NCBI RefSeq assembly: GCF_022132145.1
Contig: NZ_JAJISP010000001.1
Span: 124,001-188,000, forward strand
From: Pseudomonas sp. MMS21 TM103
GTDB taxonomy: Bacteria > Pseudomonadota > Gammaproteobacteria > Pseudomonadales > Pseudomonadaceae
Reading direction: 5' to 3'
Length of the DNA: 64,000 nt
The notes under the pieces were generated by a model. It searched no databases. It was not told the origin of the DNA and was given only the letters and a program-made list of their open reading frames with translations. Position numbers and translations under genes: made by a program. Below are positions 12,521 through 64,000 of the stretch, piece after piece; the first letter of the stretch is position 1, and every line of letters starts with the position of its first letter.

Positions 12521-12558
12521 CCCAGATACTCCTATTCGCTAAATCGCTTAACAGCCTG

Positions 12559-13848: not shown

Positions 13849-13866
13849 TTCATTTCCTTAACAGGG

Positions 13867-14979
13867 TTAGCTGCGCACGATGACCGCGGCGTCAGCAGCG
13901 ACCTTCTCGGCCGCCTTCTGGCGTATCAGCTTTTCCAGCTCATCCACCAGGTTGTCGTTGTTCAGCTTTTGCGCTGGTTTGCCATCGATATAGATCAGGT
14001 TGCTCGGTGAGCCGCCAGTGAGGCCGATGTCCGCTTCCTTGGCTTCGCCCGGGCCGTTGACCACACAGCCGATCACCGCGACATCCAGTGGCACCAGCAG
14101 GTCTTCCAGGCGACCTTCAAGGTCATTCATGGTCTTCACCACATCGAAATTCTGCCGCGAGCAGCTCGGGCAAGCGATGAAGTTGATCCCTCGAGACCGC
14201 AGGCGCAGCGACTTGAGAATATCGAAGCCAACCTTGATCTCTTCCACCGGGTCCGCGGCCAGGGAGATGCGGATGGTATCGCCAATGCCCTCGGCCAGCA
14301 GCATACCCAACCCCACCGCCGACTTCACAGTGCCCGAGCGCAGACCACCGGCCTCGGTGATGCCCAGGTGCAAGGGTTGTTCGATCTGCTTGGACAGCAG
14401 CCGATAGGCCTCAACCGCCATGAACACATCGGAGGCTTTGACGCTGACCTTGAAGTCGGGGAAATTCAAACGGTCCAGATGCTCTACATGGCGTAGCGCC
14501 GACTCGACCAGTGCTTCCGGGGTCGGCTCGCCGTATTTCTTCTGCAGATCTTTTTCCAGCGAACCGGCGTTGACCCCGATGCGAATCGAGATCCCGCGAT
14601 CGCGGGCCGCCTCGACCACCGCCTTGACCCGATCTGCACGGCCGATATTGCCCGGGTTGATGCGCAGGCAATCGACGCCCAGTTCGGCCACCCGCAGGGC
14701 GATCTGATAATCGAAGTGGATATCCGCCACCAGCGGCAGGCTGACCTGCTGCTTGATTCGGCCAAAGGCTTCGGCGGCGTCCATGTCCGGCACCGAGATA
14801 CGCACGATATCCGCACCGGCGTCCTGCAGACGTCGGACTTGGGCCACTGTTGCAGCCACATCGTTGGTATCGGTATTGGTCATGCTCTGCACAGCGATGG
14901 GCGCATCGCCCCCCACCGGCACCGAGCCAACCCAAATCTTGCGCGTCAGACGACGCTTGATCGGCGATTCGCAATGCAT
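13867..14979 (-). CDS. ispG: 4-hydroxy-3-methylbut-2-enyl diphosphate synthase (flavodoxin)
   Basis: Fe-S enzyme of the MEP isoprenoid pathway, 370 aa. The ATG at 14979 ([10 protein letters not shown]) is chosen over a 19-codon extension that would overlap rodZ. The three 4Fe-4S cysteines are in [10 protein letters not shown] and [10 protein letters not shown], and the TIM-barrel entry [22 protein letters not shown] is typical. Placement next to rodZ and hisS is conserved in gammaproteobacteria. Confidence 0.97.
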
Positions 14980-14980
14980 C

Positions 14981-15937
14981 TTACTGACCACCCAACTTGA
15001 TACGTGCGGTTTCACCCGAGATATAGGGCGCCACATCGACTGCCTGACCGTTGTAGCTCACCTGCGCACCACGGGCAAAGCCCAGGCGCAACTCCAGCGG
15101 CGCCTTGCCGGCCAGCTGCAAACTATCGCCTTTACGCTTGAGCGCACTGAACAGCACCTTGCCACTGGCGTCGGTCAATTGTGTCCAGCAGTCAGCGACA
15201 TAGCTGACACTTACCGTGCCCTCGCCGGCAGCAACGACCAGCGACTCAGTAGTGTTGGCCGGTGCGGGACTGTCGGCAGCTGCAGGTTCGACCTGTAGCT
15301 CTTCGCCAGCCGGCTCAGCCACTGCCTGCTCGACGGCACCGTCCAATTCCGACGCCGCGGTTTCTTCGGCGATGACAGGCGTCAGGTTCAGCTCAGTCTC
15401 TCCCTGAGCCGCCAGCACGGCCTGATCCTCCGGCTCATCCAGAGGATGCAGCTGGGTCATGCCATCGGCACCGTCTACTTCAACCTGCTCGATACTGGTG
15501 ACAGGCGACTCACCGGTATGCCGCGCGGCCTGCTCTTGCCACCAGTAAAAGCCGACGCCAGTCAGCGCCACCAGCAAGGCAAAACTGACGAATCGCAGGA
15601 TGCTTTGCGAGTAACGTGCGGGCTCCTCGATATGGCCCAGGCTGTGTACATCACTGCCCACGGCATCACTGCCTGTGAACTGATCGAACTCCAGGACCAG
15701 ACGACTCTGATCCATGCCCAGGAGTTTTGCATAAGCGCGAACATAGCCTCGGGCAAAGGTATTGCCCGGCAATTTATCAAAAGCGCCCGCTTCGATCTGA
15801 CTCAGGCGCAGCGGCGTGAGATTCAGTTGGGCGGCCACTTCATCTACGGCCCAGCCCTTGCTCTCGCGCGCTTCGCGCAGTGACTCACCGGGATTGACGC
15901 GCTGGGTTGCTACAACTTCAGGATGCGCCACTTTCAT
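14981..15937 (-). CDS. rodZ: Cytoskeletal protein RodZ
   Basis: Bitopic cell-shape protein of 318 aa that links MreB to the elongasome. An N-terminal helix-turn-helix (about residues 18-85) carries [10 protein letters not shown] and [30 protein letters not shown] single membrane helix lies near residues 112-133. A low-complexity Glu/Ala/Pro-rich periplasmic linker leads to the C-terminal DUF4115 beta-domain ([14 protein letters not shown]). Its ATG overlaps the pilF stop (ATGA), indicating coupled translation. Confidence 0.95.
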
Positions 15938-16695
15938 CTGTGCTCCGACCGATATTGCTGATATTCCGGCGTACCGGGATAAAGACGTTTCAATTGCAGA
16001 CCCAGGCTAGCTGCCGTATCGCGATCCTCGAAGATGGTCGCCAGACTCGCGCCGAGCAACAGGCTACGCGCATTCTGCTCGGCCAGCAGGCTGTAGCTAT
16101 CGTAATAGCCGCGCGCCGGCACATATTGCTTGTCCTCGTAGAGCATGACCGCCATTTCGAGCAGTGCCCGGGGCTGGCGACTGTTCAGGCGTAGCGAGCG
16201 CTCGAAATAGGTTTTCGCCTGTTCGCGCTGATTGAGCTTCATGGCAGTCAGGCCAAGGTTCTCGAACACCCGTGAACGCTCGGGGTAAAGGGTATCGCGC
16301 GAAGCTTGCTGATAATGCTCGAGCGCCTCTTGATAGCGCTCCTGTTCGAACAGGAAACCACCGTAGTTATTCAACAGCCGGGCATCGTCGCGGCGTTGCG
16401 ATAACGCGGTGCGATAATGTTCATCGGCCAGCTTGTATTCCATTTCGTGCTGAAATACCAACGCCAGAGCCGCATGCGCGTCCGCGCTGGAAGGGTCGAG
16501 GTCAAGTGCCTTTTTCAACGGCACCTTGGCCCGCTCACTTGCGCCTTGCTGCAGATAGCCGAGCCCCAGCTGAATGTAGGCATCACGTGCACCATCACGC
16601 CCCTTTTCGGTTCTCATCGGGTCGACGTCACCAGTCGACACACAGCCTGCCAACAGGCTGGCGATTAACAAGAACAGCGCTGGGCGCAGGGTCAT
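15934..16695 (-). CDS. pilF: Type IV pilus biogenesis lipoprotein PilF
   Basis: Pilotin lipoprotein needed for outer-membrane insertion and multimerisation of the PilQ secretin; 253 aa. The lipobox LLAGC is at about residues 14-18. Around six TPR repeats follow (for example AYIQLGLGYLQQGASERA and LLNNYGGFLFEQERYQEALEHY). The PilF family is named PilW in Neisseria. It lies between rlmN and rodZ as in P. aeruginosa. Confidence 0.94.
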   Translation of the reverse strand: MTLRPALFLLIASLLAGCVSTGDVDPMRTEKGRDGARDAYIQLGLGYLQQGASERAKVPLKKALDLDPSSADAHAALALVFQHEMEYKLADEHYRTALSQRRDDARLLNNYGGFLFEQERYQEALEHYQQASRDTLYPERSRVFENLGLTAMKLNQREQAKTYFERSLRLNSRQPRALLEMAVMLYEDKQYVPARGYYDSYSLLAEQNARSLLLGASLATIFEDRDTAASLGLQLKRLYPGTPEYQQYRSEHR

Positions 16696-16708
16696 GGGTA
16701 TCCTCTCT

Positions 16709-17857
16709 TCAAGTTCGATTGGCGGCGGAACTCGGCGTCTCGGCCTCGCTACTCAACTCACGCACGGCAATGTAGCGTTCGCTACGACGAGTACGATCCA
16801 TGACCTGGCCAACCAGCTGGCCGCAGGCAGCATCGATGTCTTCGCCGCGCGTGGTACGCACGGTGACATTGTGCCCGGCTTTGTGCAGCAGATCCTGGAA
16901 ACGGCGAATGGCATTGTTGCTCGGCCGCTCGTAACCCGAGAAGGGGAAGGGATTAAACGGAATCAGGTTGATCTTGCAAGGTACATTTTGCAGAAGTGCG
17001 ATCATCTGCTCAGCATGCTCGGGCTTATCGTTGACATCCTTGAGCAGGGTGTACTCGATGGTCAGTACACGTTTCTCGCCGAGGCGCGAGACATAACGCT
17101 GACACGCCGCCAGCAGCATCTCCAGCGGATACTTCTTGTTGATCGGCACCAACTGGTTGCGCAACTCATCGTTCGGCGCATGTAGCGACAATGCCAGGGA
17201 CACGTCGATGACTTCGCCCAGTTTGTCGATCATCGGCACCACGCCCGAGGTGGACAGGGTCACCTTGCGCTTGGAGATACCATAACCGAGGTCGTCCATC
17301 ATGATCTTCATGGCGGCGACCACGTTATCGAAGTTCAGCAGCGGCTCACCCATGCCCATCATCACCACATTGGTGATGGCGCGATCGACCCTGGCGGGCA
17401 CGCTACCGAATGACTTGTTGGCGATCCACACCTGACCGATCACTTCGGCGGCCGTCAGATCGCTATTGAAACCCTGCTTGCCCGTGGAGCAGAAGCTGCA
17501 ATCCAGAGCGCAGCCCGCCTGCGAGGAAACACACAGGGTGCCGCGCGTACCTTGCGGGATATACACGGTTTCCACACAACTGCCTGACGCCACCCGCACC
17601 ACCCACTTGCGCGTGCCATCAGTAGAAATATCTTCGCTGACCACTTCCGGGCCACGAATTTCAGCACAGGTCTTGAGTTTTTCACGCAAGACCTTGCTGA
17701 CGTTGCTCATGACATCGAAATCATCGACGCCAAAGTGGTGAATCCACTTCATCAACTGACCGGCACGGAAACGCTTCTCCCCGATGTCCTCGAAGAATTG
17801 TTCCATTTCTGCCTGGGTCAGACCCAGTAGATTGATTTTGCCGGTAGCTTCAGTCAT
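16709..17857 (-). CDS. rlmN: 23S rRNA A2503 / tRNA A37 C2-methyltransferase
   Basis: Radical-SAM methyltransferase of 382 aa. The CxxxCxxC cluster motif is at C116, C120 and C123 (CALDCSFC), the SAM-binding GMGEPLLN follows, and the conserved methyl-transfer Cys lies near the C-terminus in DAACGQL. It begins the short rlmN-pilF-rodZ-ispG-hisS run, 13 bp before pilF. Confidence 0.97.
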
Positions 17858-17881
17858 GGCTTCACCCTCGCACGCGTCGCC

Positions 17882-18313
17882 TTAGCGAATGCGCGCACAT
17901 ACCTCGGTAGCGGAGAAGAAGTAGGCGATTTCACGAGCGGCGGAAGCCTCGGAATCGGAACCGTGTACCGCGTTCTCGTCGATGGATACGGCGAAATCGG
18001 CACGAATGGTACCGGCAGCCGCTTCTTTCGGGTTGGTTGCGCCCATCAGCTCACGGTTCTTGGCGATGGCATCTTCACCTTCCAGCACCTGAACGATAAC
18101 CGGACCAGAAACCATGAAGGCGACCAGATCCTTGAAGAAGCCGCGCTCGCTGTGCTCGGCGTAAAAACCGCCAGCTTCGCGCTCGGACAGCTGGACCATT
18201 TTCGAGGCAACGACGCGCAGGCCGGCTTTTTCGAAACGGCTAACGATCTCGCCGATAACATTCTTGGCAACAGCGTCGGGCTTGATGATGGAGAAAGTAC
18301 GTTGAACAGCCAT
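17882..18313 (-). CDS. ndk: Nucleoside diphosphate kinase
   Basis: Housekeeping enzyme that equilibrates nucleoside di- and triphosphates; 143 aa, the usual length. It has the phosphohistidine H117 in NAVHGSDS and the ligand motifs SIIKPDAV and [14 protein letters not shown]. It lies 24 bp upstream of rlmN on the same strand. A -10-like TATAAT sits in the hairpin at 18350-18374 upstream. Confidence 0.97.
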
Positions 18314-18349
18314 GTGTAACTCCAGAAACGGTGGGTAATACGAAAAATT

Positions 18350-18374
18350 AAACCCGCGAATTATACGCGGGTTT
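18350..18374 (-). terminator. Hairpin ending the isc operon; also carries a -10-like box for ndk
   Basis: A perfect 9-bp stem (AAACCCGCG/CGCGGGTTT) with loop AATTATA is followed on the minus strand by TAATTTTT, so it has terminator form for iscX. Read on the minus strand, the loop contains TATAAT, a consensus -10 hexamer positioned to drive ndk, although no good -35 is seen. The two functions overlap in one structure. Confidence 0.65.
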
Positions 18375-18489
18375 GGGGGGAAAACATAAGAGCAGCGCCA
18401 AGCGACGCACCAGTAGGGCCAAGCAGGCGTCGACAGCTCGGGGAATCGCCAACTCGATAGAGGCTTGCCGCCTATGGCTTACAACCGGG

Positions 18490-18690
18490 TCAAGCCGCCT
18501 CTTCGATCCAGGCGGCCTGAATGGCTTCAAGCACTTTCTCGCCGCCACGCTGCGGATCGTCGGAAAAATCCGGCAACGCCAGCACCCAGCGATGCAGGTC
18601 GACGAAATTGACGAAACGCGGATCGATGTCAGGCTTGCTTTCCGCCAACTGGATCGCGATTTCCAGCACATCGGACCATTTGAGGCTCAT
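18490..18690 (-). CDS. iscX: Fe-S assembly protein IscX (YfhJ)
   Basis: A 66-aa acidic protein, the last gene of the isc operon. It begins MSLKWSDVLEIAIQLAE and contains DPRFVNFVDLHRW, both characteristic of IscX, which binds IscS and acts as an iron-dependent regulator of cluster assembly. The ATG at 18690 has GAGCAGG upstream. It lies 22 bp after fdx. Confidence 0.95.
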   Translation of the reverse strand: MSLKWSDVLEIAIQLAESKPDIDPRFVNFVDLHRWVLALPDFSDDPQRGGEKVLEAIQAAWIEEAA

Positions 18691-18712
18691 GACCTGCTCC
18701 TTTGCCGAATAT

Positions 18713-19051
18713 TCAATGTCCTTCGGACACTTGATTGATGGTGTACCTGGGAATCTCGACCACCAGGTCCTGCTTATCCACCACAGCCTGACAAGACAGC
18801 CGCGAATTAGGCTCCAACCCCCAGGCCTTGTCCAGCATATCGTCTTCGAGCTCGTCGGATGGATCCAGGGAGGCAAACCCCTCGCGAATCACCACATGAC
18901 ACGTCGTGCAGGCACAGGATTTCTCACAGGCATGCTCGATGTCGATACCGTTGCGCAGTGCGACGTTGAGCACGGTTTCGCCCGGCTGCGCTTCGAGCAC
19001 AGCCCCTTCAGGGCAGTGGTCGGCGTTGGGCAGAAAAATCACCTGCGGCAT
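18713..19051 (-). CDS. fdx: Isc-type 2Fe-2S ferredoxin
   Basis: Adrenodoxin-type ferredoxin of 112 aa that supplies electrons for cluster assembly. The 2Fe-2S ligands are C42, C48, C51 and C87, matching E. coli Fdx numbering; an extra Cys at 46 is also present, as in many homologues. It is two bases downstream of hscA, within the operon. Confidence 0.96.
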   Translation of the reverse strand: MPQVIFLPNADHCPEGAVLEAQPGETVLNVALRNGIDIEHACEKSCACTTCHVVIREGFASLDPSDELEDDMLDKAWGLEPNSRLSCQAVVDKQDLVVEIPRYTINQVSEGH

Positions 19052-19053
19052 AC

Positions 19054-20919
19054 TTACTCCTCGATTTCATTAAGACTACGGCCAGCCAATGCGGCCTTGA
19101 CCGTGGCATCCAGGCGGCGAGCGGCAAAGGCATCGGTCAACTGGGTCAAACGCTTGGTCTGCTGCTCGATGGCCAGGCCATCGTTACCCGCCATCAGCTC
19201 GCGCAACTGCTGCATTTGCGCATCGATAGCCAGGCGCTCATCGGCGTCCAGCAAACGTTCGCCATCGGCTTGCAAGGCAGCCTCTACCGCCTCGAGCAGA
19301 CGCTGAGCATCCACCTGCAGCTCACGCAAGACACGGGCAACCTTGTCGTCACCGGCATTCTTGAACGAGTCCTGCAGCATTCGCGCGATTTCGCCATCGG
19401 TAAGCCCGTAAGACGGCTTGACCTGGATGCTCGCCTCCACACCCGACGCCAGCTCGCGGGCTGCTACGCCGAGCAAGCCATCGGCATCGACCTGGAAGGT
19501 CACACGGATCTTCGCCGCACCGGCGACCATGGGCGGAATACCGCGCAACTCGAAACGCGCCAGGGAACGGCAATCGCTGATCAGCTCGCGCTCACCTTGC
19601 AGCACATGAATCATCATGGCCTTCTGGCCATCTTTATAGGTGGTGAAGTCCTGGGCACGCGCCACCGGAATAGTGGTGTTGCGCGGAATCACCTTCTCCA
19701 TCAGCCCACCCATGGTTTCCAGGCCGAGCGACAGCGGAATCACATCGAGCAGCAACAGCTCGTCACCCTCCGCACGCTTGTTCCCCGCCAGGGCATCGGC
19801 CTGGATCGCGGCACCTATGGCCACCACCTGATCCGGATCGATGTCGGTCAGGGGCTCGCGGGCAAACATCTCGGCAACCGCCTGGCGCACGCGCGGCACG
19901 CGGGTCGAACCACCGACCATGACCACGGCCTCGACCTCTTCCAGCTCGATGCCGGCATCGCGCACGGCACGCCGACAGGCCTTGAGGCTGCGCGCCAGCA
20001 TCGGCTCGATCAACGCTTCGAACTGCTCACGACTCAACTGCCCCTGCCAGGCCCCATGACTAAGCTGGGCCGCAGCACAACTGGTCAGGGTTTCCTTGGC
20101 CACGCAGGCGGCCTGCAGCAGACTGCGCTGCTCGCCCGGATCGAGATCGGCAGACAGACCGGCCTGCTCGATTATCCAGCCTGCAATTGCATGATCGAAG
20201 TCATCACCACCCAAGGCACTGTCACCACCGGTGGCCATGACCTCGAAAACCCCGCCAGTCAGACGCAAAATGGAGATATCGAAGGTGCCGCCGCCCAGGT
20301 CATAAATCGCCACCACGCCCTCGGCATGCTGGTCCAGACCATAGGCCACGGCTGCGGCGGTCGGCTCATTGAGCAGGCGCAGCACATTCAAGCCAGCCAG
20401 ACGCGCCGCATCCTTGGTGGCCTGGCGCTGGGAGTCATCGAAGTAGGCCGGCACCGTGATTACCGCACCGACCAGTTCGCCACCCAGGGCGGCCTCAGCA
20501 CGCAGGCGCAACACCTTGAGGATATCGGCAGACACTTCGACCGGGCTTTTCGGCCCCTGCACCGTATCGATGAAGGGCATGTGCGACTCGCCTTCGACAA
20601 AGCGGTAGGGCAACTGCTCGCCCAACTGTTTGACGTCGGCCAGACCGCGCCCCATCAGGCGCTTGACTGACAGCACGGTATTCAGTGGGTCAGCCGACGC
20701 GGCCAGCCTGGCGGCCTCGCCGACCTCGACATGGTCGGCGTGATAGCGCACCGCAGAGGGCAGAATGACCTGCCCTGCAGCATCGGCGATCGGCTCGGAC
20801 AGGCCGCTGCGCAGGGCAGCGACCAGCGAATTAGTGGTTCCCAGATCAATCCCCACCGCCAACCGACGCTGGTGGGGCTGGGGGCTCTGTCCGGGCTCAG
20901 CGATCTGCAGTAAGGCCAT
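19054..20919 (-). CDS. hscA: Hsp70-type chaperone HscA
   Basis: Specialised Hsp70 of 621 aa that helps IscU hand over its cluster. It has the ATPase phosphate loop [24 protein letters not shown] and [12 protein letters not shown] shortened substrate-binding domain recognises the LPPVK motif of IscU, which is present here in iscU. It lies between hscB and fdx. Confidence 0.97.
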
Positions 20920-53787: not shown

Positions 53788-56700
53788 CTAGACGGCGAAG
53801 CGCCGGTCAAGGGCGCTGTAGCCCATGCCCACGCTCTTGTGCACTTTCAATTGCACAGGAATCCGCTCCTTCATGGCCTCGACGTGGCTGATCACGCCGA
53901 TCATCTTGCCGCTGGCATTCAGGCTGTCGAGGGCATCCAGGGCGATTTCCAGGGTTTCGCCGTCCAGGGTGCCGAAGCCTTCGTCGAGGAACAGCGAGTC
54001 GATGCTGGTCTTGTGGCTGACCAGGTCGGACAGGGCTAACGCCAGGGCCAGGCTGACCAGGAAGCTTTCGCCGCCGGACAGGGTCTTGGTGTCGCGGGCG
54101 ACATCGGCCTGCCAGGTGTCGATCACCTCCAGTTCCAGTTCGCCGCTGCCACGCCGCGCCAACTGGTAGCGGCCATGCAGGCGTTCGAGCTGCTGGTTGG
54201 CCAGGTAGACCAGATGATCGAGGGTCAGACCCTGGGCAAACTTGCGGTACTTGGCGCCGTCGGCCGAGCCGATCAGGCTGTTGAGTTGCTGCCAGAGGTC
54301 GTACTCGACCTGCTTGGCGTCGATCTCGGCGAACAGGCTCTGCTGGCCCAGCCGCCGCGCATCGTCACCCTGCAACTGGGCGCGGATTTCGCCCTGGCGC
54401 TGGGTCAGGGTTTTCAGCTCGGCAGTCAGCAGCTGCAGGCGTTGTTCAAGCGGTTCGCGCTCAAGCTTGCCGGCCGGATTGGCTTGCAAGGTCGCCACCT
54501 GTTGCTCGGCGGCGGTTTTCAGTGCCTGGGCCTCGGCCAGGGATCTGTCCAGGCGCTCCTTGAGCCGGGACAGCGCAGCACGCTGCTGATCGTCCAGCAG
54601 CGCGGCCTGGAATGCGCCCTCGTCGCCAAACGGGCTGGCGGCCAGGGCCGCCGCCCACTGCTGCACGTTGACCTGCAGGCCATGTTGATCATCTTTCAGC
54701 CGCTGCGCCTGGGTCTGTTGCGTACCGTGCAATTGCTGGTGACGGTTCTGCTCATGGCTTAGCTGCGCCTCGGCTTGCTGCAGCGCGGCCCGCGCATCGG
54801 CAACCGCCGGCAGTGCCGGCAGTGCCGGCAGCGGTTCCTGCTGCTCTGCCGCCCAGCGCTGTAGCCAGTTGCCATGCAGTTCGCGGGCTAGGCCGAGGGC
54901 ATGCTCCAGCTCGCGCTGCTCAGCCTCCAGCTGCTGGCGCCGCTGTTGCGCCTGCTGCCAGCTGTGCCACTCGACTTCGCGTTCGCGCAGCCAGGCGTCA
55001 CCGTCGGCAGGCAGGCTGTAACCGATCGCGGCCAGCTCTTCGCCGAGGACGCTGTCGCGTTCGCGGCGCTGGCCCTGTAATTGCTCCAGGCGCGCGGCGA
55101 GATCCGCCAACTGGGTGTCCTGATGCTGGCGCTGCTGACTGGCCAGGGCCAGCTGTTGCTGCCTGGCGATGCACGCCTGCTCGAGCTGCTGACGAACCGT
55201 GCGTGCGCCTTCATGGGCGCACTTCACCTGATCGAGCCGATCCAGGCGGCGCTGGATGGCATCCAGTTCGCCCGCCTGCTGCTGCTCATGCGCGGCCACG
55301 GCGACGGCATCGGCCAGCGCGGTGCCGAGCTGTTCGTTCAACTGCTGCCAGCGTTGGTCCTGCTCAGTACGCTCCTGACGGCTGCCTTGCAACTGCTGCC
55401 GATGCTGTTCGAGCTGGCTGGTCAAGGTCGCCAGCTCGCTGGCCAGACGTTGACCGCTGCCGGTCAGGGTTTCCAGTTCGGCCTTCTTCGCCAGCAGGGT
55501 CTGCTGGGTGGCGGACACGTCCAGCGCCTGGTAGGCGGCAATCGCCGGGTGTTCGTGGGAGCCACACAAGGGGCAGGCTTGGCCCTCCTGCAGTTGCGCA
55601 CGGTAGGTTTCCAGGGCCTGGATGCGCCGCTCCTGCTCCAGCAATTTTTCCTGGTCGCGCAGCTGTTGCTGCAGATCCTTGTAGCGCGCGCGCAAGGCGA
55701 GCACCTCGGCCTCCTTGGCGGTGTGCTGGGCGTGCAACTCGTTCAGCTTGCCGTCCAGCTGCGCCTGCTGTTCGGCCAGTTGCTGGCGAGCGCTGGCCAG
55801 CTGCTTGAGCTGGCCCAGCAGGCCGCTGCGCCGGTGCAGCAGCTGCCAGTCCTCGCGCAGGGCGGCTTCGCTGCGCCCGGCCAACAGGTCATCGACCAGC
55901 CGCTGCTGCTCGCCTTCCGCCCCTTGCGCTTCAAGCAGGCGCGCCTGCTCGGCGCTCAACTGCGCGGCCTGCTCGAGCAACTGTCGCTGCAGCACCTGCA
56001 CGGCCTGGGCGGTCTGCTGCTGCTGGCTGCCGAGTTGGTCGATGTCCACGCCCAGCTGCAGGCGCGCCGCAAACTGGCCGCGCCATGCCACCAGCTGCTC
56101 ACCGAGCCGAGCGTGTGGCGCCTGCTCGGCCAGGCGGGTTTGCAGCTGCTGGCGCTGCGCGGCCAGCTGATCGTAAGCGTGCTGCCGCTCGCCAAGCAGT
56201 TGCTGGCTGTATTGGTGAGCCTGCCACAGACACTCGCCGATGCGTTGCGCGGCCTGCTGCTGGGCGACCTGGGTCTGCTGCAAGGCCTGTTCAGCCTGGC
56301 CCACGGCCTGCTGCGCCTGCTGCCAGTCGCGATGAATCGGCTGCAGTTTTGCCGCTGGCTCGCTGGCGGCCAGCTGCGCCAGCTGTGCCTGGGCGGCCTG
56401 CAATTCGTCCCAGGCACGCTGCTCGGCCAGCGCCGTGCTGTGCTGCTGGCTCTGCGCTTTGGCCAGGTCATCGCGCCATTGGCGTTGGCGTTGCAGTTCG
56501 GCCTGCTCGGCATTCAGGCGGGCGTCTTCGGCGCCCAGGCGTTCGGCTTCGAGCTGCAACTGGCTACGCTGCTCGTCACCCAACAACTCGACGCCTGCGG
56601 CACGCGCACGCAGCTGGTCGAGCGTGCCTCTGACCTCGCGGGTCTGCTCGAACACCCGCTGGGAAATCTGCCCATAGATATCGGTGCCGGTCAGCTCTTC

Positions 56701-57216
56701 CAGCAGCTCGGCGCGCTGGTTGGCATTGGCCTCGAGGAAGGCGGCAAAACCGCCCTGGGCCAGCAGCATGGATTTGGTGAAGCGTTCGAAGTCCAGCCCC
56801 GTCAGGCGCTCGGTCTCGCGCAGCTTCTCGTTGATCTTGTCGGTGAGGATAGTGCCATCGGCCGCGGCCAGTTCCACCTTGGGCGCCTGCAGCGCGCCGC
56901 CGGCCTTGTCGCGGGCGCGGCGCTGGCTCCAGAAGGCGCGGTAACGCGCACCTTTGACCTCGAACTCGACCTCGGCCAGGCAATCGCCGGTGTGCCGGGT
57001 CATCAGCTCGTTGGCGCTGGCCGAGACGCTGCTCATGCGCGGCGTGCGGTGGTACAGGGCCAGGCAGATGGCGTCGAGCAAGGTGGTCTTGCCCGCCCCG
57101 GTCGGCCCGGTGATGGCGAACAGGCCGTTGTCCTTGAACGGCTCGGCGGTGAAATCGATCCTCCACTCGCCCTTGAGCGAGTTGAGGTTCTTCAGGCGCA
57201 GGCTGAGGATCTTCAT
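53788..57216 (-). CDS. sbcC: DNA repair exonuclease subunit SbcC (Rad50-like)
   Basis: 1142-aa SMC/Rad50-type ATPase. Walker A GPTGAGKT is at residues 37-44. Two long Gln-rich coiled coils flank the zinc hook CPLCG (C548, C551), and the signature LSGGESFLVSLALALALSDL and Walker B/D-loop SLFLDEGFGTLD follow at the end. With SbcD it cuts hairpins and protein-blocked ends. In pseudomonads sbcD normally lies immediately upstream; here the 600 bp upstream hold no sbcD, only the repeat region. The ATG at 57216 lacks a clear ribosome site. Confidence 0.96.
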   Translation of the reverse strand: MKILSLRLKNLNSLKGEWRIDFTAEPFKDNGLFAITGPTGAGKTTLLDAICLALYHRTPRMSSVSASANELMTRHTGDCLAEVEFEVKGARYRAFWSQRRARDKAGGALQAPKVELAAADGTILTDKINEKLRETERLTGLDFERFTKSMLLAQGGFAAFLEANANQRAELLEELTGTDIYGQISQRVFEQTREVRGTLDQLRARAAGVELLGDEQRSQLQLEAERLGAEDARLNAEQAELQRQRQWRDDLAKAQSQQHSTALAEQRAWDELQAAQAQLAQLAASEPAAKLQPIHRDWQQAQQAVGQAEQALQQTQVAQQQAAQRIGECLWQAHQYSQQLLGERQHAYDQLAAQRQQLQTRLAEQAPHARLGEQLVAWRGQFAARLQLGVDIDQLGSQQQQTAQAVQVLQRQLLEQAAQLSAEQARLLEAQGAEGEQQRLVDDLLAGRSEAALREDWQLLHRRSGLLGQLKQLASARQQLAEQQAQLDGKLNELHAQHTAKEAEVLALRARYKDLQQQLRDQEKLLEQERRIQALETYRAQLQEGQACPLCGSHEHPAIAAYQALDVSATQQTLLAKKAELETLTGSGQRLASELATLTSQLEQHRQQLQGSRQERTEQDQRWQQLNEQLGTALADAVAVAAHEQQQAGELDAIQRRLDRLDQVKCAHEGARTVRQQLEQACIARQQQLALASQQRQHQDTQLADLAARLEQLQGQRRERDSVLGEELAAIGYSLPADGDAWLREREVEWHSWQQAQQRRQQLEAEQRELEHALGLARELHGNWLQRWAAEQQEPLPALPALPAVADARAALQQAEAQLSHEQNRHQQLHGTQQTQAQRLKDDQHGLQVNVQQWAAALAASPFGDEGAFQAALLDDQQRAALSRLKERLDRSLAEAQALKTAAEQQVATLQANPAGKLEREPLEQRLQLLTAELKTLTQRQGEIRAQLQGDDARRLGQQSLFAEIDAKQVEYDLWQQLNSLIGSADGAKYRKFAQGLTLDHLVYLANQQLERLHGRYQLARRGSGELELEVIDTWQADVARDTKTLSGGESFLVSLALALALSDLVSHKTSIDSLFLDEGFGTLDGETLEIALDALDSLNASGKMIGVISHVEAMKERIPVQLKVHKSVGMGYSALDRRFAV

Positions 57217-57315
57217 GTCGGGGTCGATGACCGTCAGAAAAAGGCCATTCTGACATCGTTGGGGGGATTGTGCCGACGACTCATAAGCGGAAAAGTCGCC
57301 GGCGCTTGGCCCTGC

Positions 57316-57447
57316 TGCGAACTACGCAATGATCAGGGCGAAGCGCTGAAGACCTGGCCGGATATACGCATGTAACCCGCACTGACGACAGGGCAGCAAG
57401 AGCGTTACGAACTGCTTGCTGGGAGTGTCCAGATGCGCATTGTCAGG
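57316..57447. repeat. Left copy of a ~130-bp imperfect direct repeat, with attC-like end
   Basis: This copy (132 bp) matches 62895-63023 (129 bp) in the same orientation. Shared blocks include GCGAACTAC, GGCCGGATATACGC, CTGACGACAGG and GTCCA-AT-CGC. Its right part, 57369-57447 (79 bp), is attC-like: ends ATGTAAC and GTCAGGT, with inner arms CAGCAAG/CTTGCTG. Read on the minus strand the R' end is GTTACAT, six of seven positions of the GTTRRRY rule. It lies between sbcC and the efflux operon. Confidence 0.7.
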
Positions 57448-57849
57448 TGTTGCATTGTGATCAGCTTTTGCATGCCCACAGAAGCGCAAGGCTTATCAAG
57501 GCTAAAGGTGCTAACGGGTTTGCCCCCATCCTCACCTCTTTTCAGGCACCCCTCTGGTCCATTTGACGGTTGCGATCGTTGCGAGATCACCGGCTCCCAG
57601 CTAGACATAACAGTAGATGGTGCCGAAAGAGGGTCTTGGCAACCCTCTCATTTCCGGAAAAGCCGAGCCGTGGCGAGGTTTTTGTTATCTGCCGCTGGCA
57701 ATTCCGAGCAGCGACGCTGGGCGGTTCAAGTATCGATTGAACGCAGGCGTCCTCACCAGATGAACACTTGCCCGCGTCAGCGATCGTGCCAGCTGCAAAC
57801 GCTGGAGAGCACCGCCGGCGACAACTTGTATATCACTGGATCGATACAG
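57448..57849 (+). other. Unassigned region upstream of the efflux operon
   Basis: About 400 bp without a credible gene. A plus-strand frame is open through it into the HlyD gene, but its translation resembles no protein I know and lacks the codon pattern of neighbours. A hairpin (GAGGGT...ACCCTC near 57629-57650) is present. The operon promoter probably lies here but I cannot place it. Confidence 0.4.
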
Positions 57850-58839
57850 ATGTCTGATAAGGAACGGCCGCCCTTCACATCGAGCATCGCTTGGTGGTGG
57901 ACAGCTGTGGTGATCGTCATCTTGGCTGTTGCCTCCTACATCCTGTTTCGGTTACTGAGTCCTGCGCCCCAGGCGGAGGGGATTCTCTACGGTAGCGGAC
58001 ATATCGAGGGAACGGAGATCCGGGTCAGCGCCGAAACCACCGGGCGTGTGCTCGATAACCGGATGGACGAAGGCCAACCGGTCCAGGCCAACGATCTGCT
58101 GGTACGCCTCGATGACCGTGAGCTGAGGATTCGCCAAGCGCTAACCGAAGCCGAACTGACGGCCATCCGCCAGGGGCGCCAGGCCCGGCAGGCACAACTG
58201 GATGTCTGGCGCCATCATGCCGATACGGCAGCCTCGGATTACAAGCGTTTCCTGAAACTGCGTCAGACCGGCGTCGCAACGCCTCAGCAGCTGTCCAGCG
58301 TCGAAGATCGCCTCAAGGAAGCGCAGGGCCAGGTCAAGTTTCTGCAGGCGCAACTGGCCGAAAGCGATGCCCGGCTACAGGCCGCCGAGCAAAGCCTGCG
58401 ACTGCTGAAGCTGCAGCTGGAGAAGACCGTCATCAAGGCGCCCGTAGACGGCACCCTGATCGTCAAGGCGATCGAAACGGGAGAACTCGCCACTCCCGGT
58501 ACCCCGATTGCGATGCTGGTGGACCTGTCGCACCTGCGGCTCAAGGTGTACGTTCCGGAACGGCTTATCGGCAGGGTCCGGCTCGGCAACCAAGCCCGGG
58601 TGCGGCTCAACGCCTTCCCCGAACGCTACTTCGAGGCCAGGGTCTCCGCGGTCGATCAGCGTGCCCAGTTCACGCCCCGGGACGTGCATCTGCCGGAGGA
58701 ACGCGCGCGCATCGTCTTCGGCGTCGAACTCTCGCTGGATAACCCCGAAGGCTTCCTGAAACCCGGCATGCCGGCCGACGCCTGGATACGCTGGTCGTCG
58801 GAACAGCCATGGCCGCAACGGCTGGAGGTCCCACGATAG
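57850..58839 (+). CDS. HlyD-family membrane fusion protein (YbhG-like)
   Basis: 329-aa periplasmic adaptor. There is an N-terminal membrane anchor (about residues 14-34, WWWTAVVIVILAVASYILF) and a lipoyl/biotinyl half-motif GTEIRVSAETTGRVLDNRMDEGQPVQ. A coiled-coil hairpin of about 110 residues is followed by the second half KAPVDGTLIVKAIETGELATPGTPIAML and a beta-barrel. First gene of a four-gene unit with an ATPase and two permeases, matching ybhGFSR. Its stop directly precedes the ATPase ATG. Confidence 0.9.
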   Translation: MSDKERPPFTSSIAWWWTAVVIVILAVASYILFRLLSPAPQAEGILYGSGHIEGTEIRVSAETTGRVLDNRMDEGQPVQANDLLVRLDDRELRIRQALTEAELTAIRQGRQARQAQLDVWRHHADTAASDYKRFLKLRQTGVATPQQLSSVEDRLKEAQGQVKFLQAQLAESDARLQAAEQSLRLLKLQLEKTVIKAPVDGTLIVKAIETGELATPGTPIAMLVDLSHLRLKVYVPERLIGRVRLGNQARVRLNAFPERYFEARVSAVDQRAQFTPRDVHLPEERARIVFGVELSLDNPEGFLKPGMPADAWIRWSSEQPWPQRLEVPR

Positions 58840-60579
58840 ATGGTGACTGAGCTGAGCGCAGAGCGGATCATCGAAGCGCAGGGACTGGGCAGGCGCTTCG
58901 GCCACCAGGAGGCGCTGGCGGATATCGATCTGCAGGTGGAGCGTGGCGAAATATTCGGCATCCTGGGTCCCGACGGCGCGGGCAAAACCACCCTGATGCA
59001 GCTGCTCGCCGCGATCCTGGACCCCACCGCCGGCCGGTGCCGGGTGCTCGGCTTCGATACTGTGCGGGAGTCCTCCCAGGTAACCGACCGTATCGGTTAC
59101 ATGTCGCAGGGATTCACCCTGTACGACCGCCTGAGCGTCGAGGAAAACCTGGCGTTTTCTGCTCGCATTCGCGGTGTTCCCGATGCGGCTTACCGACTGC
59201 GACGCCAACGCCTGCTGCAAATGGCAGGTCTTCACGACGCCGTCGACCGAGAGGCCCGCGTGCTGTCGGGCGGCATGCGCAAAAAGCTGTCCCTGTGCAC
59301 CAACCTGATTCATGAGCCCGAGTTGTTGTTGCTGGACGAACTCAGCCTCGGCGTCGACCCGTTATCGCGTCAGGAGCTGTGGAAGATGCTTCGCACCTTT
59401 CGCGATTCCGGCATGACCATCGTCCTGACGACCCCCTATATGGATGAAGCACAGGCCTGTGACCGGCTGGCCTTTCTGCATCGAGGACACCTGCTGGCGA
59501 TGGACAGCCCCATGGCCTTGAGCGATCGGGCGCGTGGGCGGGTCTATGAGGTGGTGACAGCCCGTCTGGCTGAGGTACACGCTATTCTCTCCGCAGCCCC
59601 CGAAGTCATCAGCGGACAGTGGCTCGCCGATCGCTATCGCTTTCAACTCGACAATGATGATGGCCTGTCGGAAGCGCTGCGCATGAAGCTCCACTATCTG
59701 GGCGTCCCGCACCCGACCACGCCCGATCTGGAAAACGCCTTCGTCCAGTTGACGGCCCAGCCGACCGACCGCCTTGCGACAACCGATTCGCTTCACACTG
59801 CCTCCGCGCCGGCCGCTCCCGCAACTGCCATTGCCGCCACCGAGATCAGTGTTCGCTTTGGCAATTTTTCCGCCGTGAACCAGGTCTCCTTCCGTATCGC
59901 CGCTGGCGAGGTGGTCGGTTGGCTAGGGCCGAACGGGGCCGGCAAGACCACACTCATCCGCGTACTCTGCGGCTTGCAGCGCCCGAGCTCCGGCGAGGCC
60001 GAGATCGCCGGCCTGCCATTGGCGACCGCGTCGGCACAGATCAAGGCCCGCATCGGCTACATGTCGCAGCGCTTCTCACTCTATCCCGACCTCAGCGTGA
60101 TCGAGAACCTGCGCTTTTTCGCCGGAGTGTATGGCCTTTCAGGGCAGCGTCGCCGCGATGCGATCCGCTGGGTCAAACCTCTGGTCGGTATCGACGATCT
60201 GGACGTTAGCCGCACCAACGCGCTTTCCGGCGCCATGCGTCAGCGGTTGGCACTGGCCTGCGCCATCATGCACCGGCCCTCGGTACTCTTTCTCGATGAG
60301 CCGACGTCGGGTGTCGATCCCATGGCACGCCGCCGTTTCTGGCAGCTGATCCAGTGGCTGGCCCGATCGGGCATGGCGATTCTGGTCACCACCCATTACC
60401 TAGAAGAGGCCTACTACTGTCACCGCCTCGGGCTGATGCACAACGGTCGCCTGATCGCCCTGGGTACCCTAGACGAACTACGAAGCGCACTGCAGCCCCC
60501 GGACCCAGGGGCACCCATGGACAGCGTTTTCATGGCCTATATCACCCGTCCATCCTCTACTGCCGGGGTGGTCGGATGA
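58840..60579 (+). CDS. Double-NBD ABC transporter ATPase (YbhF-like)
   Basis: 579-aa ATPase with two fused nucleotide-binding domains. NBD1 has Walker A GPDGAGKT (43-50) and signature LSGGMRKK, but its H-loop position holds proline (TTPYMDEA, P199). NBD2 has GPNGAGKT (363-370), a usual H-loop TTHYLEEA, and signature LSGAMRQ with A465 in place of Gly. The two sites therefore probably differ in hydrolysis. Its stop overlaps the next start (ATGA). Confidence 0.92.
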   Translation: MVTELSAERIIEAQGLGRRFGHQEALADIDLQVERGEIFGILGPDGAGKTTLMQLLAAILDPTAGRCRVLGFDTVRESSQVTDRIGYMSQGFTLYDRLSVEENLAFSARIRGVPDAAYRLRRQRLLQMAGLHDAVDREARVLSGGMRKKLSLCTNLIHEPELLLLDELSLGVDPLSRQELWKMLRTFRDSGMTIVLTTPYMDEAQACDRLAFLHRGHLLAMDSPMALSDRARGRVYEVVTARLAEVHAILSAAPEVISGQWLADRYRFQLDNDDGLSEALRMKLHYLGVPHPTTPDLENAFVQLTAQPTDRLATTDSLHTASAPAAPATAIAATEISVRFGNFSAVNQVSFRIAAGEVVGWLGPNGAGKTTLIRVLCGLQRPSSGEAEIAGLPLATASAQIKARIGYMSQRFSLYPDLSVIENLRFFAGVYGLSGQRRRDAIRWVKPLVGIDDLDVSRTNALSGAMRQRLALACAIMHRPSVLFLDEPTSGVDPMARRRFWQLIQWLARSGMAILVTTHYLEEAYYCHRLGLMHNGRLIALGTLDELRSALQPPDPGAPMDSVFMAYITRPSSTAGVVG

Positions 60580-61673
60580 ATCCCGCCCGCATCCGTGCCG
60601 TCATCGGCAAGGAAACGCGGGAAATCCTGCGCGACCCCATCACGCTGGGCGTGGCCCTGCTTATGCCCCTGGTCATGCTGTTTCTATTTGGCTACGCGAT
60701 ATCCCTCGACCTGCGCAGCGCCTCCCTGGGCGTGCTTGACGAGGACTACAGCCCCACCAGCCGAGCATTGATCGAGCACTTCAGCGCCAATGAGTCCTTC
60801 CGGCTCAGCCGCTCCCTGGAGTCAGCCCGGGAGGTCGAAGAGGCACTGCAGCGAGGTCAGGTCGATCTGGTGCTGGTGATTCCGGCAGGTCTGAGCAACA
60901 AGCTGCTGCGCGGGGAACAGCCGGACGTTCAGGTTCTCATCGACGGCACCTATTCCACCACCGCCCTGCTGGCGGCCGGCTATGCCGAGGCCCTGGTTAC
61001 CAGTTTCGCCCCCCCCCCTTCCCGGGCGGCACTGAGGCTCGAAACCCGGGTCTGGTACAACCCCTCGTTGAAAAGCGTCAACTACATCGTGCCCGGTCTT
61101 TATGCCGTGATTCTGCTGGCCTTCCCACCGCTGTTGACCGCGCTGGGCATAGTACGGGAGAAGGAAACGGGCACCATACAGTCCATTTTCGCCTCGCCGC
61201 TGACCTCCAGCGAGTTCATTTTCGGCAAGCTGGTGCCCTACAGCCTGATCGCACTGCTGCAGATGCTCATCGTGGTGGCCTTCGGCTACTTCTGGTTCGG
61301 CGTGCCGTTTCAGGGCAGCTTTCTCTTTCTGCTGGCGGCCGGCCTTATCTACGTGCTCTGTACCGTCGGCATCGGACTGCTGGTGTCAACGCTGACCCGA
61401 ACCCAGTTGACCGCCATGCTGCTGGCCTTGATCGTGACGCTGATGCCGTCCTTCCTGTTTTCCGGTCTGCTGTTTCCGATCTTCACGATGCCGGCGCTGC
61501 TACAGCTGTATGCCGCGATCTTCCCAGGGCGTTATTTCGTCGAAATATCCCGCGGCATCGCGCTGAAAGGCACCGGCATCGACATTGTCTGGCTCCAGGT
61601 AGCGGTGCTGGCCCTCTACACCCTGGCCGTGTTCCTCCTGGCCAGTCGACGACTGAAGAAAAAGGTGGCCTGA
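60576..61673 (+). CDS. ABC-2 type permease 1 (YbhS-like)
   Basis: 365-aa ABC-2 membrane protein. One N-terminal helix (ITLGVALLMPLVMLFLFGYAISLDL) precedes a periplasmic domain of about 130 residues, and five C-terminal helices contain IVREKETGTIQSIFASPLTSSEFIFGKLVPY, the family's coupling motif. Pairs with the next permease to form the channel. ATG overlaps the ATPase stop by 4 bp. Confidence 0.92.
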   Translation: MNPARIRAVIGKETREILRDPITLGVALLMPLVMLFLFGYAISLDLRSASLGVLDEDYSPTSRALIEHFSANESFRLSRSLESAREVEEALQRGQVDLVLVIPAGLSNKLLRGEQPDVQVLIDGTYSTTALLAAGYAEALVTSFAPPPSRAALRLETRVWYNPSLKSVNYIVPGLYAVILLAFPPLLTALGIVREKETGTIQSIFASPLTSSEFIFGKLVPYSLIALLQMLIVVAFGYFWFGVPFQGSFLFLLAAGLIYVLCTVGIGLLVSTLTRTQLTAMLLALIVTLMPSFLFSGLLFPIFTMPALLQLYAAIFPGRYFVEISRGIALKGTGIDIVWLQVAVLALYTLAVFLLASRRLKKKVA

Positions 61674-62764
61674 TGCGACTCGGCAGCCTGTTGATCAAGG
61701 AGCTGATCCAGTTCTTCCGCGACCGGGTCATGCTGCTGCTGATCCTGTGGCTCTACACCGTGGAAGTGGTGATCTGCGCCTACGCATTGGGACTGGATCT
61801 TCGACATCTGCCGCTGGCCGTGCTCGATCACGATCGCAGCGCCTACAGCCGCCAGTTGGTCGATGCACTGACCAGTGGTGAGTCCTTCGCGTTCACCGGT
61901 TACCCCCGCGACATGAGGCAGGCCGAGGGCTGGCTGCAGGAAGGGCGCACCCGCGCCGTGCTGGTCATTCCCGGCGATTTTGCCGAAGCACTGGTACGCA
62001 ATGAAACCTCGACCCTCCAGCTGCTGCTGGACGGTAGCGATGCCAATACCGCCGCGACCGCACGCAACTACATCCTGCGGGGGCTCTCGTTGCTGCAGGC
62101 CGACGCCGGTCCGAATCCGTCACCGGCCATTCGGCCAGTCATACGCATCTGGTACAACCCGGACCTGACCTACACGCGCTTCATGGTGCTGTCGATGATT
62201 GCGCTCGCCGCGCTGATGGTGGGCGTCATTCATCCGGCAGCGACCATCGTGCGCGAAAAAGAACTCGGTACCCTCGAGCAATTGCAGGTCACACCGATCC
62301 GAATCGGCGAACTCTTCGTCGCCAAGACGGTACCGACACTGGTGATAGGCACGCTATCGGTGTTTCCGAGCCTGCTGATCGTCCGCTGGTTCGACGTGCC
62401 CCTGCGCGGCAGCTTGACGTTGTTCGTACTGCTGACCGCCCTCTTCCTGCTCAGCGCCATCGCCATCGGCGTGCTGGTCGCCGCCGTCTGCCGGACATTG
62501 CAGCAGGCGCTGCTGCTGGCGTTCTTCGGTCTGTTTCCGATGATGTTCCTGTCCGGCACCCTGGCCCCGATAGCCAGCATGCCCGCAACACTGCAGTACC
62601 TGTCACTGCTCAGTCCCTTGCGCTACTACATGGACGTCATCCTCGGCATCTTTCTCAAGGGCAACGGCCTTGCCGATCTTTGGCCACAGGCACTGGCGCT
62701 GGCGGGGATCGGTCTGCTGTTGTTCGCATTGGCGGCGACCGTGTTTCGGCGTCAACAGCCGTGA
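61673..62764 (+). CDS. ABC-2 type permease 2 (YbhR-like)
   Basis: 363-aa second permease of the same layout, with FFRDRVMLLLILWLYTVEVVICAYAL at the N-terminus and IVREKELGTLEQLQVTPIRIGELFVAKTVP. Its ATG shares a base with the upstream stop. In E. coli the YbhGFSR system exports some antibiotics and is controlled by the TetR-type CecR; no TetR gene is present here. No terminator is obvious after it. Confidence 0.92.
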   Translation: MRLGSLLIKELIQFFRDRVMLLLILWLYTVEVVICAYALGLDLRHLPLAVLDHDRSAYSRQLVDALTSGESFAFTGYPRDMRQAEGWLQEGRTRAVLVIPGDFAEALVRNETSTLQLLLDGSDANTAATARNYILRGLSLLQADAGPNPSPAIRPVIRIWYNPDLTYTRFMVLSMIALAALMVGVIHPAATIVREKELGTLEQLQVTPIRIGELFVAKTVPTLVIGTLSVFPSLLIVRWFDVPLRGSLTLFVLLTALFLLSAIAIGVLVAAVCRTLQQALLLAFFGLFPMMFLSGTLAPIASMPATLQYLSLLSPLRYYMDVILGIFLKGNGLADLWPQALALAGIGLLLFALAATVFRRQQP

Positions 62765-62894
62765 ACACCCACAGCATCACTACACGGCCTGGAGACAGCA
62801 GAACTGCCAGTTACCCTGTCAAATCTCCTTCAGGATGCAACGCCGTCGCGAAATGCTGATCTGCAACAGCCTTTGAGCGCATCGCCCCCGTCAT

Positions 62895-63023
62895 GCGAAC
62901 TACAGAATGGCCAAGGCGCTAGCCCACAACAGGCCGGATATACGCATGCAACCGCGCTGACGACAGGCTGGAAACGCTATTGCTAACCGCTTGTGCGGAG
63001 GGTCCATATACGCCTTGTTAGCC
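62895..63023. repeat. Right copy of the ~130-bp imperfect direct repeat, with attC-like end
   Basis: This copy matches the left copy at 57316-57447. Its right part, 62946-63023 (78 bp), ends ATGCAAC and GTTAGCC. On the minus strand it reads GGCTAAC...GTTGCAT, both within one mismatch of the attC core-site rules. It directly follows the 119-aa minus-strand gene (stop at 63027), the position an attC site has after a cassette gene. Between the efflux operon's end (62764) and this repeat I see no gene. Confidence 0.7.
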
Positions 63024-63026
63024 GCT

Positions 63027-63386
63027 TTAGAGCCCGCCAAAATGGATAAACCATGGACGTATATCCCGGCCTTTATGACCTTCATACTCCGACTTTCCTC
63101 TGAGCTGCTTCCGGCAACGAAACAGGCTGATCATTGCTGGAATCAATAACAAATTGAACAGCCATTGGCGTGCATCTGTCGACTTGAATACGATTGCTGC
63201 AGATGAGCTAATTAGAATAACGCCAATTATTAAAAGGTTGTATCTGATATGCCTGCGCCTGATTAAAGCAAAGCTCTCCCAATCGTAAACCAGCCAATCG
63301 TGGGAGAAATTAGCGCATTTAGGGCACTTATGGGTTGGAGGCAGGCTATCTGCGATATAACCACAGCTAGGGCATCTAACTTTCAT
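63027..63386 (-). CDS. Zinc-ribbon membrane protein, cassette-type gene (hypothetical)
   Basis: 119 aa. The N-terminus has two CxxC pairs (C5/C8 and C21/C24), a zinc-ribbon, followed by two membrane helices at about residues 48-66 and 74-90 and a short basic tail. AGGAT precedes the ATG at 63386. The base composition is visibly richer in A/T than neighbouring chromosomal genes. It sits between two attC-like sites in the orientation expected of an integron cassette. Function unknown. Confidence 0.72.
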   Translation of the reverse strand: MKVRCPSCGYIADSLPPTHKCPKCANFSHDWLVYDWESFALIRRRHIRYNLLIIGVILISSSAAIVFKSTDARQWLFNLLLIPAMISLFRCRKQLRGKSEYEGHKGRDIRPWFIHFGGL

Positions 63387-63412
63387 GGCACTATCCTAAT
63401 GCTCTCTCTGTA

Positions 63413-63468
63413 GGCTAACGCCTGAATTAACCGGAGCCGCCAAGCGGTTTCCGGTTGAATTTTTAGGC
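63413..63468 (-). repeat. attC-type recombination site B
   Basis: 56-bp imperfect inverted repeat. Outer ends GGCTAAC and TTTAGGC resemble core sites. The inner arms TTAACCGG...CCGC and GCGG...CCGGTTGAA pair with an extra base on one side (an extrahelical base) and a CAA apex, the arrangement typical of attC. The TAA stop of the 99-aa gene (63463-63465) lies inside it. Strand is that of cassette genes. Confidence 0.8.
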
Positions 63469-63762
63469 AGCGGTCTGGCTAGGGCCAACCACCAGGATAT
63501 AGGAAGCCAGCATTGCCAAGATGAGCCAGCAAGACCAGTACAGCCACCTTTCCCAATGAGTCGGCATGCTACCCGCGGCCCTCTCCAGACGATGCCGGTA
63601 GTACATCGCAGCTGCATGCACCGCAAGACCGCCGAGCAAGAGAAGAAGCTTGAACGGCTCCAGCCAGGATTGGAGGAACAGAGCGATGCCGCCTGTGGCA
63701 ATGCAGGCGCCGATGAGCGACAGCAGCTCCGCGTTCTTCAGTCGGTTGCGAGCATCTTTCAT
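63463..63762 (-). CDS. Small three-TM membrane protein, cassette gene (hypothetical)
   Basis: 99 aa with hydrophobic segments at about residues 13-31, 38-54 and 75-93 and a basic loop YYRHRLERAAG. Its ATG at 63762 lies 6 bp from attC site A, and its stop is inside attC site B, so gene plus site B make a compact cassette of about 300 bp. No family is recognised. Confidence 0.72.
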   Translation of the reverse strand: MKDARNRLKNAELLSLIGACIATGGIALFLQSWLEPFKLLLLLGGLAVHAAAMYYRHRLERAAGSMPTHWERWLYWSCWLILAMLASYILVVGPSQTAA

Positions 63763-63767
63763 AGGCT

Positions 63768-63827
63768 GCCTAAGGTCAAAGATCAGGCGCGCCACTTTGC
63801 GGCGTCGACTGGAGCGCGTTGTTGGGC
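63768..63827 (-). repeat. attC-type recombination site A
   Basis: 60-bp site. On the minus strand it reads GCCCAAC (a perfect RYYYAAC) through to CTTAGGC (six of seven of GTTRRRY), with inner arms CAGTCGACGCC/GGCGCGCCTG that pair with unmatched bases. It lies between the metallo-hydrolase stop (63860) and the 99-aa gene. Confidence 0.75.
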
Positions 63828-63859
63828 GGCACAATGACCACCGAGGGGACGCTCGATCA

Positions 63860-64000
63860 TCATGCCGAGAAAGTCAGCTTGGTGCCCGCCATATTGAGCA
63901 AGAACTCCCGGTTCATTTCCTGTTCAATGTGCATCACCGCATTCCTGCCGGTACAGTGCGTGGGCACGATGTAGCGCGGACTGATGTCCTTTAACGCATC
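63860..64000 (-). CDS. MBL-fold metallo-hydrolase, C-terminal part (cut by window edge)
   Basis: 46 codons and a TGA are visible, reading off the right edge. The peptide contains ISPRYIVPTHCTGRNAVMHI and ends MAGTKLTFSA, the C-terminal signature of the MBL-fold subgroup related to dihydropterin-type synthases (the PTHCTGR His is a metal ligand). It lies directly upstream of attC site A, so it may be a cassette gene. The rest must be read outside the window. Confidence 0.8.
   Translation of the reverse strand, partial: DALKDISPRYIVPTHCTGRNAVMHIEQEMNREFLLNMAGTKLTFSA

Follow-up and report, generated by a model that had tools for sequence, protein, structure and literature searches.

The gap between the DNA-repair genes sbcD and sbcC on the chromosome of Pseudomonas sp. 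MMS21 TM103 (4.95 Mb, 13 contigs) holds three gene cassettes headed by a predicted attI, and it raises the question of whether such a block is part of a working integron, what is left of one, an array filled from elsewhere, or no integron at all. The window analysed here is the whole 64,000-nucleotide stretch C1:124001-188000, and sequence was examined to 18 kb beyond its right edge. A preliminary description had taken the block for the probable distal end of a cassette array in a chromosomal integron, with attI and the integrase lying to the right. We consider it probable, at roughly 85%, that the block is instead the residue of a chromosomal integron at sbcD-sbcC that lost its integrase on the spot.

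Three cassettes between sbcD and sbcC

The insert is bordered on the left by sbcC (53788..57216, minus strand, assigned by profile searches) and on the right by sbcD, which lies outside the window (C1:189094-190320). Reading leftwards from sbcD, the predicted attI (C1:188877-188893, about 0.9 kb past base 64,000 and thus outside the window) precedes the first cassette, an MBL-fold gene of 317 amino acids on the minus strand that ends at 63860 (63860..64000 in the window, on to C1:188813; L011:1361-2314). The second cassette carries an open reading frame of 99 amino acids (63463..63762, minus strand) and the third a gene of 119 amino acids (63027..63386, minus strand) with an N-terminal zinc-ribbon-like stretch. 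The preliminary description had placed all three minus-strand genes correctly, and its observation of a stop codon inside a site also stands, the stop of the 99-aa gene (63463-63465) falling within 63413-63468. Its view of the block as simply the distal end of an array is not supported: the cassette next to attI, and so the first, is that of the MBL gene, and beyond the third cassette the array gives way to insertion-sequence debris.

The MBL protein has 4134 homologues at E <= 1e-3 and scores over the cut-off of the general Lactamase_B model. Because it falls far under the curated beta-lactamase models (24.9 bits for the best, against a cut-off of 240), we do not call the gene a resistance enzyme. 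The 99-aa protein had no match in Pfam or NCBIfam and no relatives in the viral contigs searched, and the 119-aa protein gave a sub-threshold match to PF21349. Among the matches listed, homologues numbered 39 for the 119-aa and 40 for the 99-aa protein, own copies included, and for 35 and 37 of these, respectively, the longest contig was shorter than 30 kb. Most of a 119-aa relative was present in 22 named genome loci, 21 of them titled Pseudomonas. Rfam at its gathering threshold returned only a tRNA across the window.

In an integron, the R'' of an attC is complementary to the 5' core of the cassette to which it belongs and not to that of the neighbouring cassette. The 5' cores GTTGGGC, CTTAGGC and GTTAGCC correspond to the R'' sequences GCCCAAC (63821-63827), GCCTAAA (63462-63468) and GGCTAAC (63017-63023) at 7/7, 6/7 and 7/7 positions when taken in cassette order, giving 20 of 21 bases against 15-17 for the five other pairings. 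All three attC sites lie on the minus strand. That of the MBL cassette (63768..63827) has CTTAGGC at the R' position (63768-63774), one base off GTTRRRY, and that of the 99-aa cassette (63413..63468) has R' GTTAGCC (63413-63419); a remnant of 14 bp (63010..63023) represents the attC of the third. The third gene followed by the same R'' sequence recurs in several other Pseudomonas loci, and in P. tumuqii (L018) the 3' region of this cassette continues longer and uninterrupted.

The sites were also scored with a covariance model of seven base pairs built from six attC sites outside the sbcD array, two from a class 1 integron plasmid, two from the array on contig C7 of this genome, one from the array on contig C10 and one from P. 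tumuqii; the window's own sites and a doubtful site (L134:3737-3804) were left out. The site at 63413-63468 reached 27 bits (E 5e-4 over 190,843 bases, 1.8e-5 over 57217-64000). The site at 63768-63827 scored 13.6 bits, which is background by this model (E 1.3 over 190,843 bases, 0.046 over 6,784), as is the third site at 62946-63023 with 10.5 bits at best. A low score is not decisive, since the model, with its seven pairs, is small and gave only 12.6 bits to the site that follows the predicted dfrA1 cassette in plasmid record L041. The best plasmid match of 63413-63468 was the end of an aadB cassette (79% over 59 query bases, E 8e-6), and 587 plasmid records matched it at E <= 0.1; 63768-63827 found no match in plasmids. 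A simple consensus-and-stem scan for attC was dropped, as it gave 30 matches in a 57 kb control and left the sites inseparable from background.

Counted per cassette, one attC is over the model threshold, one is at background and one is halved, with the core rule holding at 20/21 bases. A covariance search of 57217-64000, of the kind that the preliminary description had proposed, recovered 63413-63468 and left the other two sites at background, so that not all three are at background, though only just. Its three attC-like sites fare better by the core rule, which favours all three cassettes, and its central claim of a chromosomal integron cassette array in this orientation is supported by that rule, the attI motif and the 27-bit site.

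The attI motif and the missing integrase

The gap between sbcD and the MBL gene contains, immediately ahead of the MBL cassette, the sequence CCATCTAATCACTGTTG. Across the genus, 20 of 398 genomes, our own included, have the pattern CCNTCTAATCACTGTTR, at 37 sites in all; its reversed control was found in 0 of 398. Among 30 motif loci retrieved, IntI of one kind lay alongside in eight (L093, L100-L103, L108, L116, L121), an intI fragment in one (L114), and 21 had no IntI match at E <= 1e-4. The gene is intact in seven of the eight IntI-bearing loci and interrupted in L100. In six of the eight sbcD lies on the far side of intI, which is intact in five of these six. Because IntI of one kind adjoins the same motif in relatives, we take the motif to be attI; an attI motif before the first cassette, a feature of complete integrons, is thus present here in common with the intI-bearing relatives.

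At our locus no integrase gene stands beside attI, and sbcD comes after an intI-like stub of 41 bp. Throughout the genome, a search for integron integrases returned only C7:51913-52854 over the cut-off (488.9 bits against 265). The expectation of attI and integrase to the right was accordingly half right: extension of the sequence brought out the predicted attI at C1:188877-188893, and of intI only the stub. This stub matches the 3' end of the relatives' intI, best in L116 with 35 of 41 bases, and in each of the eight loci compared its score was reached by 0 of 500 shuffles. The 62 bp before the attI motif have a clear likeness to L116, L108 and L122, are barely over shuffles in L114, are at the edge of chance in L093 and L101 (1/300 shuffles) and are unlike L112, where 206 of 300 shuffles reach the score.

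The same place was then compared among relatives. A sample of 79 genomes gave an SbcD match in 76, of which 14 (our own included) were at >= 67% identity. In five of these 14, sbcC directly follows sbcD (L045-L048, L057), in two the gap measures about 0.3 and 0.5 kb (L053, L055), and in the remaining seven there is a larger insert or sbcC is out of reach. Five relatives read sbcD, intact intI, attI at this place. The insert of L075 has an interrupted intI, attI and cassettes; that of L077 has an intI fragment, attI and cassettes; and in L076 (G012:C1:3466500-3485700) an open IS1111-type transposase frame and the noncoding region belonging to it come after the attI motif, together with another noncoding copy that points the other way, and the covariance model found no attC. 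Relatives thus display empty, full and partly decayed stages at sbcD-sbcC. Because the nearest relative by SbcD (L082) is without insert, local loss after an earlier gain is something that we infer rather than trace on a tree.

Insertion-sequence relics around a transporter operon

The left end of the array is formed by remains of insertion sequences. Window positions 62872-63022 match 51 plasmid records at 79-84%. In each of the three records examined (L041-L043) the matching stretch begins a short way past the end of an IS110-family transposase gene and extends to the end of a cassette, and the alignment places the right end of the element, with a subterminal repeat, 13-14 bp inside attC. 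The third site is thus 14 bp of attC joined to about 140 bp of an IS1111-type element end; of the span 62946-63023, which had been described as one attC-like site, only about 63010-63023 is attC. The element end, relic A (62872..63009, plus strand), consists of the right end and the noncoding (seekRNA) region, and so has the feature expected of an IS1111-type element at attC, a noncoding region with its right end inside an attC.

A second such noncoding region with right end, relic B (57316..57434, plus strand), resembles relic A at 73.7% over 133 aligned positions and lies between sbcC and an operon of HlyD, ABC ATPase and two ABC-2 permease genes (57823..62764, plus strand, assigned by profile searches, the HlyD start being approximate); its attC-like flank is weak (5.4 bits). 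Relics A and B have the same orientation and flank this ABC-exporter operon. For neither was a transposase gene found at the locus, nor did a search across 57200-63100 find a left-end repeat within two mismatches of the repeat of relic A; the operon as cargo of an insertion sequence is accordingly unsupported. The attC remainder expected to have been displaced by relic A was not found in the window. Elsewhere in the genome, the transposase search returned a fragment (C2:87276-87584), an open frame on C11 whose product is a relative at 33% identity, and a short stretch of C7, and the IS1111-type noncoding region occurs at six places, both window copies included. A search with one permease of the operon gave no match at E <= 1e-60 outside this genome among the 149 searched, and the operon was therefore likely acquired.

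The 119-aa gene stands beside an IS1111-type noncoding relic in seven of the 22 named loci (L020, L022, L023, L025, L027, L034, L037). In these seven the relic follows the gene at around 10,300-10,500, with a short match only in two, and no transposase match was found within the locus.

Taken together, these features suggest the following history. The ancestral order would have been sbcD, intI (on the opposite strand), attI, cassettes, sbcC. The stub would once have been part of a working intI, likely deleted down to 41 bp. IS1111-type elements, which may have targeted attC through a seekRNA, would have inserted near attC ends and later lost their transposase genes, the attC of the third cassette being cut by the end of an insertion sequence likely targeting such sites. 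The transporter operon would have entered between the two relics and replaced the previous content. The order in which these losses are told is likewise our reconstruction. The predicted attI and attC sites were or are presumably active. As the cognate IntI is absent, the cassettes are predicted to be fixed now; they are probably stranded unless an integrase from elsewhere moves them, and any expression of them is predicted to depend on read-through or on a promoter within the attI region.

attI-headed arrays across the genus and the competing readings

Of the 20 genomes that bear the attI motif, 13 have at least two copies of it. From the 37 sites 20 attI regions were fetched; IntI lies beside attI in five of them (L127, L134, where it is broken, L135, L137 and L142), and 15 have no IntI match. 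Over these 20 regions and L075-L077 the covariance model, at E <= 0.01, found 58 attC. Every one of them is on the same strand as attI and lies downstream of it; downstream sequence makes up 231 of 271 kb. At least one attC lies downstream in 13 of the 15 orphan regions; the model found none in the orphan regions L140 and L141, nor in L127 and L076. Three genomes assembled as a single contig allow distances to be read: G138 has an orphan array with four attC and an intact IntI 1.17 Mb away, G164 an orphan array with nine attC and an intact IntI 0.71 Mb away, and G113 two orphan arrays, one with four attC and one with five, but no IntI that passes the cut-off. In all, seven of the 20 genomes with the motif lack an IntI over the cut-off.

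Seven orphan loci beside an ABC-ATPase gene have 157-194 bp in common with the intI-bearing L101; the remaining orphan loci have less in common with it, or only the motif at the same sensitivity. In seven genomes (L094, L099, L107, L110, L113, L119, L120) the orphan attI block is about 0.5 kb from the ABC-ATPase gene, a pattern suggestive of one or two second sites that recur. A match of 26-31 bp between the sbcD-linked L101 and the orphan loci L107 and L110 was set aside as a candidate terminal repeat; it is probably a REP-type repeat. Blocks of about 1.4 kb common to both arrays of G138 are likely insertion sequences instead of shared cassettes, because a transposase match falls in the same region of L096.

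Our own genome contains two further integron loci. An orphan array on C10 (L123, G000:C10:237500-248500, positions 1740-2700) has the attI motif first and no integrase, followed by a RidA-like gene of 134 amino acids, a 59-bp attC, a cupin-like gene and IS1111-like debris, the genes being named by eye; the attC scores 61.9 bits and belongs to the model's own training set. The genome's one integron with an intact IntI is on C7 (L012, G000:C7:40000-59900, positions 11911-19324), where attC sites of a uniform Pseudomonas type follow the IntI. Compared with four full-length sbcD-type IntI, this integrase shows 52-53% identity. The stretch that follows its gene terminates in another attI-like core, one also present in G224; judged by sequence, the C7 integron is of another lineage than the sbcD type. 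Its IntI might still act in trans on the attC sites of the sbcD array, but its own array starts at that other core.

These data bear on three other accounts of the block. To the view that it is the distal end of a live integron with the integrase further right we give practically no credence: the orientation and order of genes and sites suit it and the attI motif does lie to the right, but sbcD comes after attI and the stub, and the only IntI over the cut-off is on C7. With an adjacent integrase, that reading is already refuted. Ordinary genes with chance attC-like repeats make a very improbable account. Two of the three sites are at model background and the consensus scan matched freely in the control, but 63413-63468 is significant and resembles a known aadB cassette end, and neither the 20/21 core rule nor the attI motif nor the recurrence of the third gene's R'' in other Pseudomonas loci would be expected.

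It is also improbable, if less so, that a promoter-attI block lacking intI came to be seeded at sbcD, its cassettes being supplied in trans by an integrase encoded elsewhere. Arrays headed by attI and lacking intI do exist at other loci (15 of the 20 fetched, 13 of these 15 with attC downstream), among them the one on C10. Against this, relatives have intI itself at sbcD, and the intI 3' stub remains here. Had an attI block that was always without intI at this place captured an array, the outcome would look similar except for the stub, which a seeded block should lack. An integron at sbcD-sbcC that lost its integrase on the spot is the account that we prefer. The order of the genes, the lack of intI, the attI motif with the neighbours that it has in relatives, the cassette rule and the insertion-sequence relics are shown by the data; counted against the account are the two of three attC sites at model background and the uneven likeness across relatives of the 62 bp before attI. 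Beyond the locus, we raise tentatively, as something rather less than an even chance, that the integron of this genus is a dispersed system in which one integrase gene serves scattered attI-headed arrays, many without an integrase of their own, the sbcD array and its C10 partner being what remains after loss of the cognate integrase.

The remains are legible here, in the form of the stub, the attI motif, cassettes still in order and the insertion-sequence relics that interrupted the array, and the empty, full and half-decayed stages of the sbcD-sbcC gap can be compared across species. Since attI-headed arrays without intI are common in the genus, whether one IntI feeds several docking sites becomes testable; if it does, the counting and reading of intI-less arrays change. 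In the open-access literature we found no paper on an integron at sbcD-sbcC, nor one in which a single integrase serves several arrays headed by attI; older papers on Pseudomonas stutzeri integrons could cover either.

IS1111 elements such as ISKpn4 and ISPst6 insert at attC ends (PMC11187229). The relics resemble them in the noncoding region downstream of the transposase position, the subterminal repeat and insertion by the R'' end of attC; unlike those elements as described there, both copies here are without transposase and left end, and hence are relics. The block is like a CALIN in having attC-bearing cassettes with no integrase nearby (PMC12444791). By the count of at least two attC without a nearby integrase, one site has E < 0.01 and the other 0.046-1.3 depending on the length searched. 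It differs by its predicted attI, which the CALIN definition does not require (PMC12444791), and by having one of three sites over the model. Loss of an integrase with retention of cassettes is already known, and the Xanthomonas history is of the same kind. There, ancestral integrons beside ilvD repeatedly lost intI, and roughly every second genome also has attC clusters at other loci, which a functional IntI can reportedly mobilise in trans (PMC12444791). Our system is like those ilvD integrons in its lineage-specific site, repeated decay of intI, retention of cassettes and intI-less arrays elsewhere; unlike them, as far as that account goes, it occupies sbcD-sbcC, keeps an attI motif and an intI stub, and has orphan arrays headed by the same attI motif (PMC12444791).
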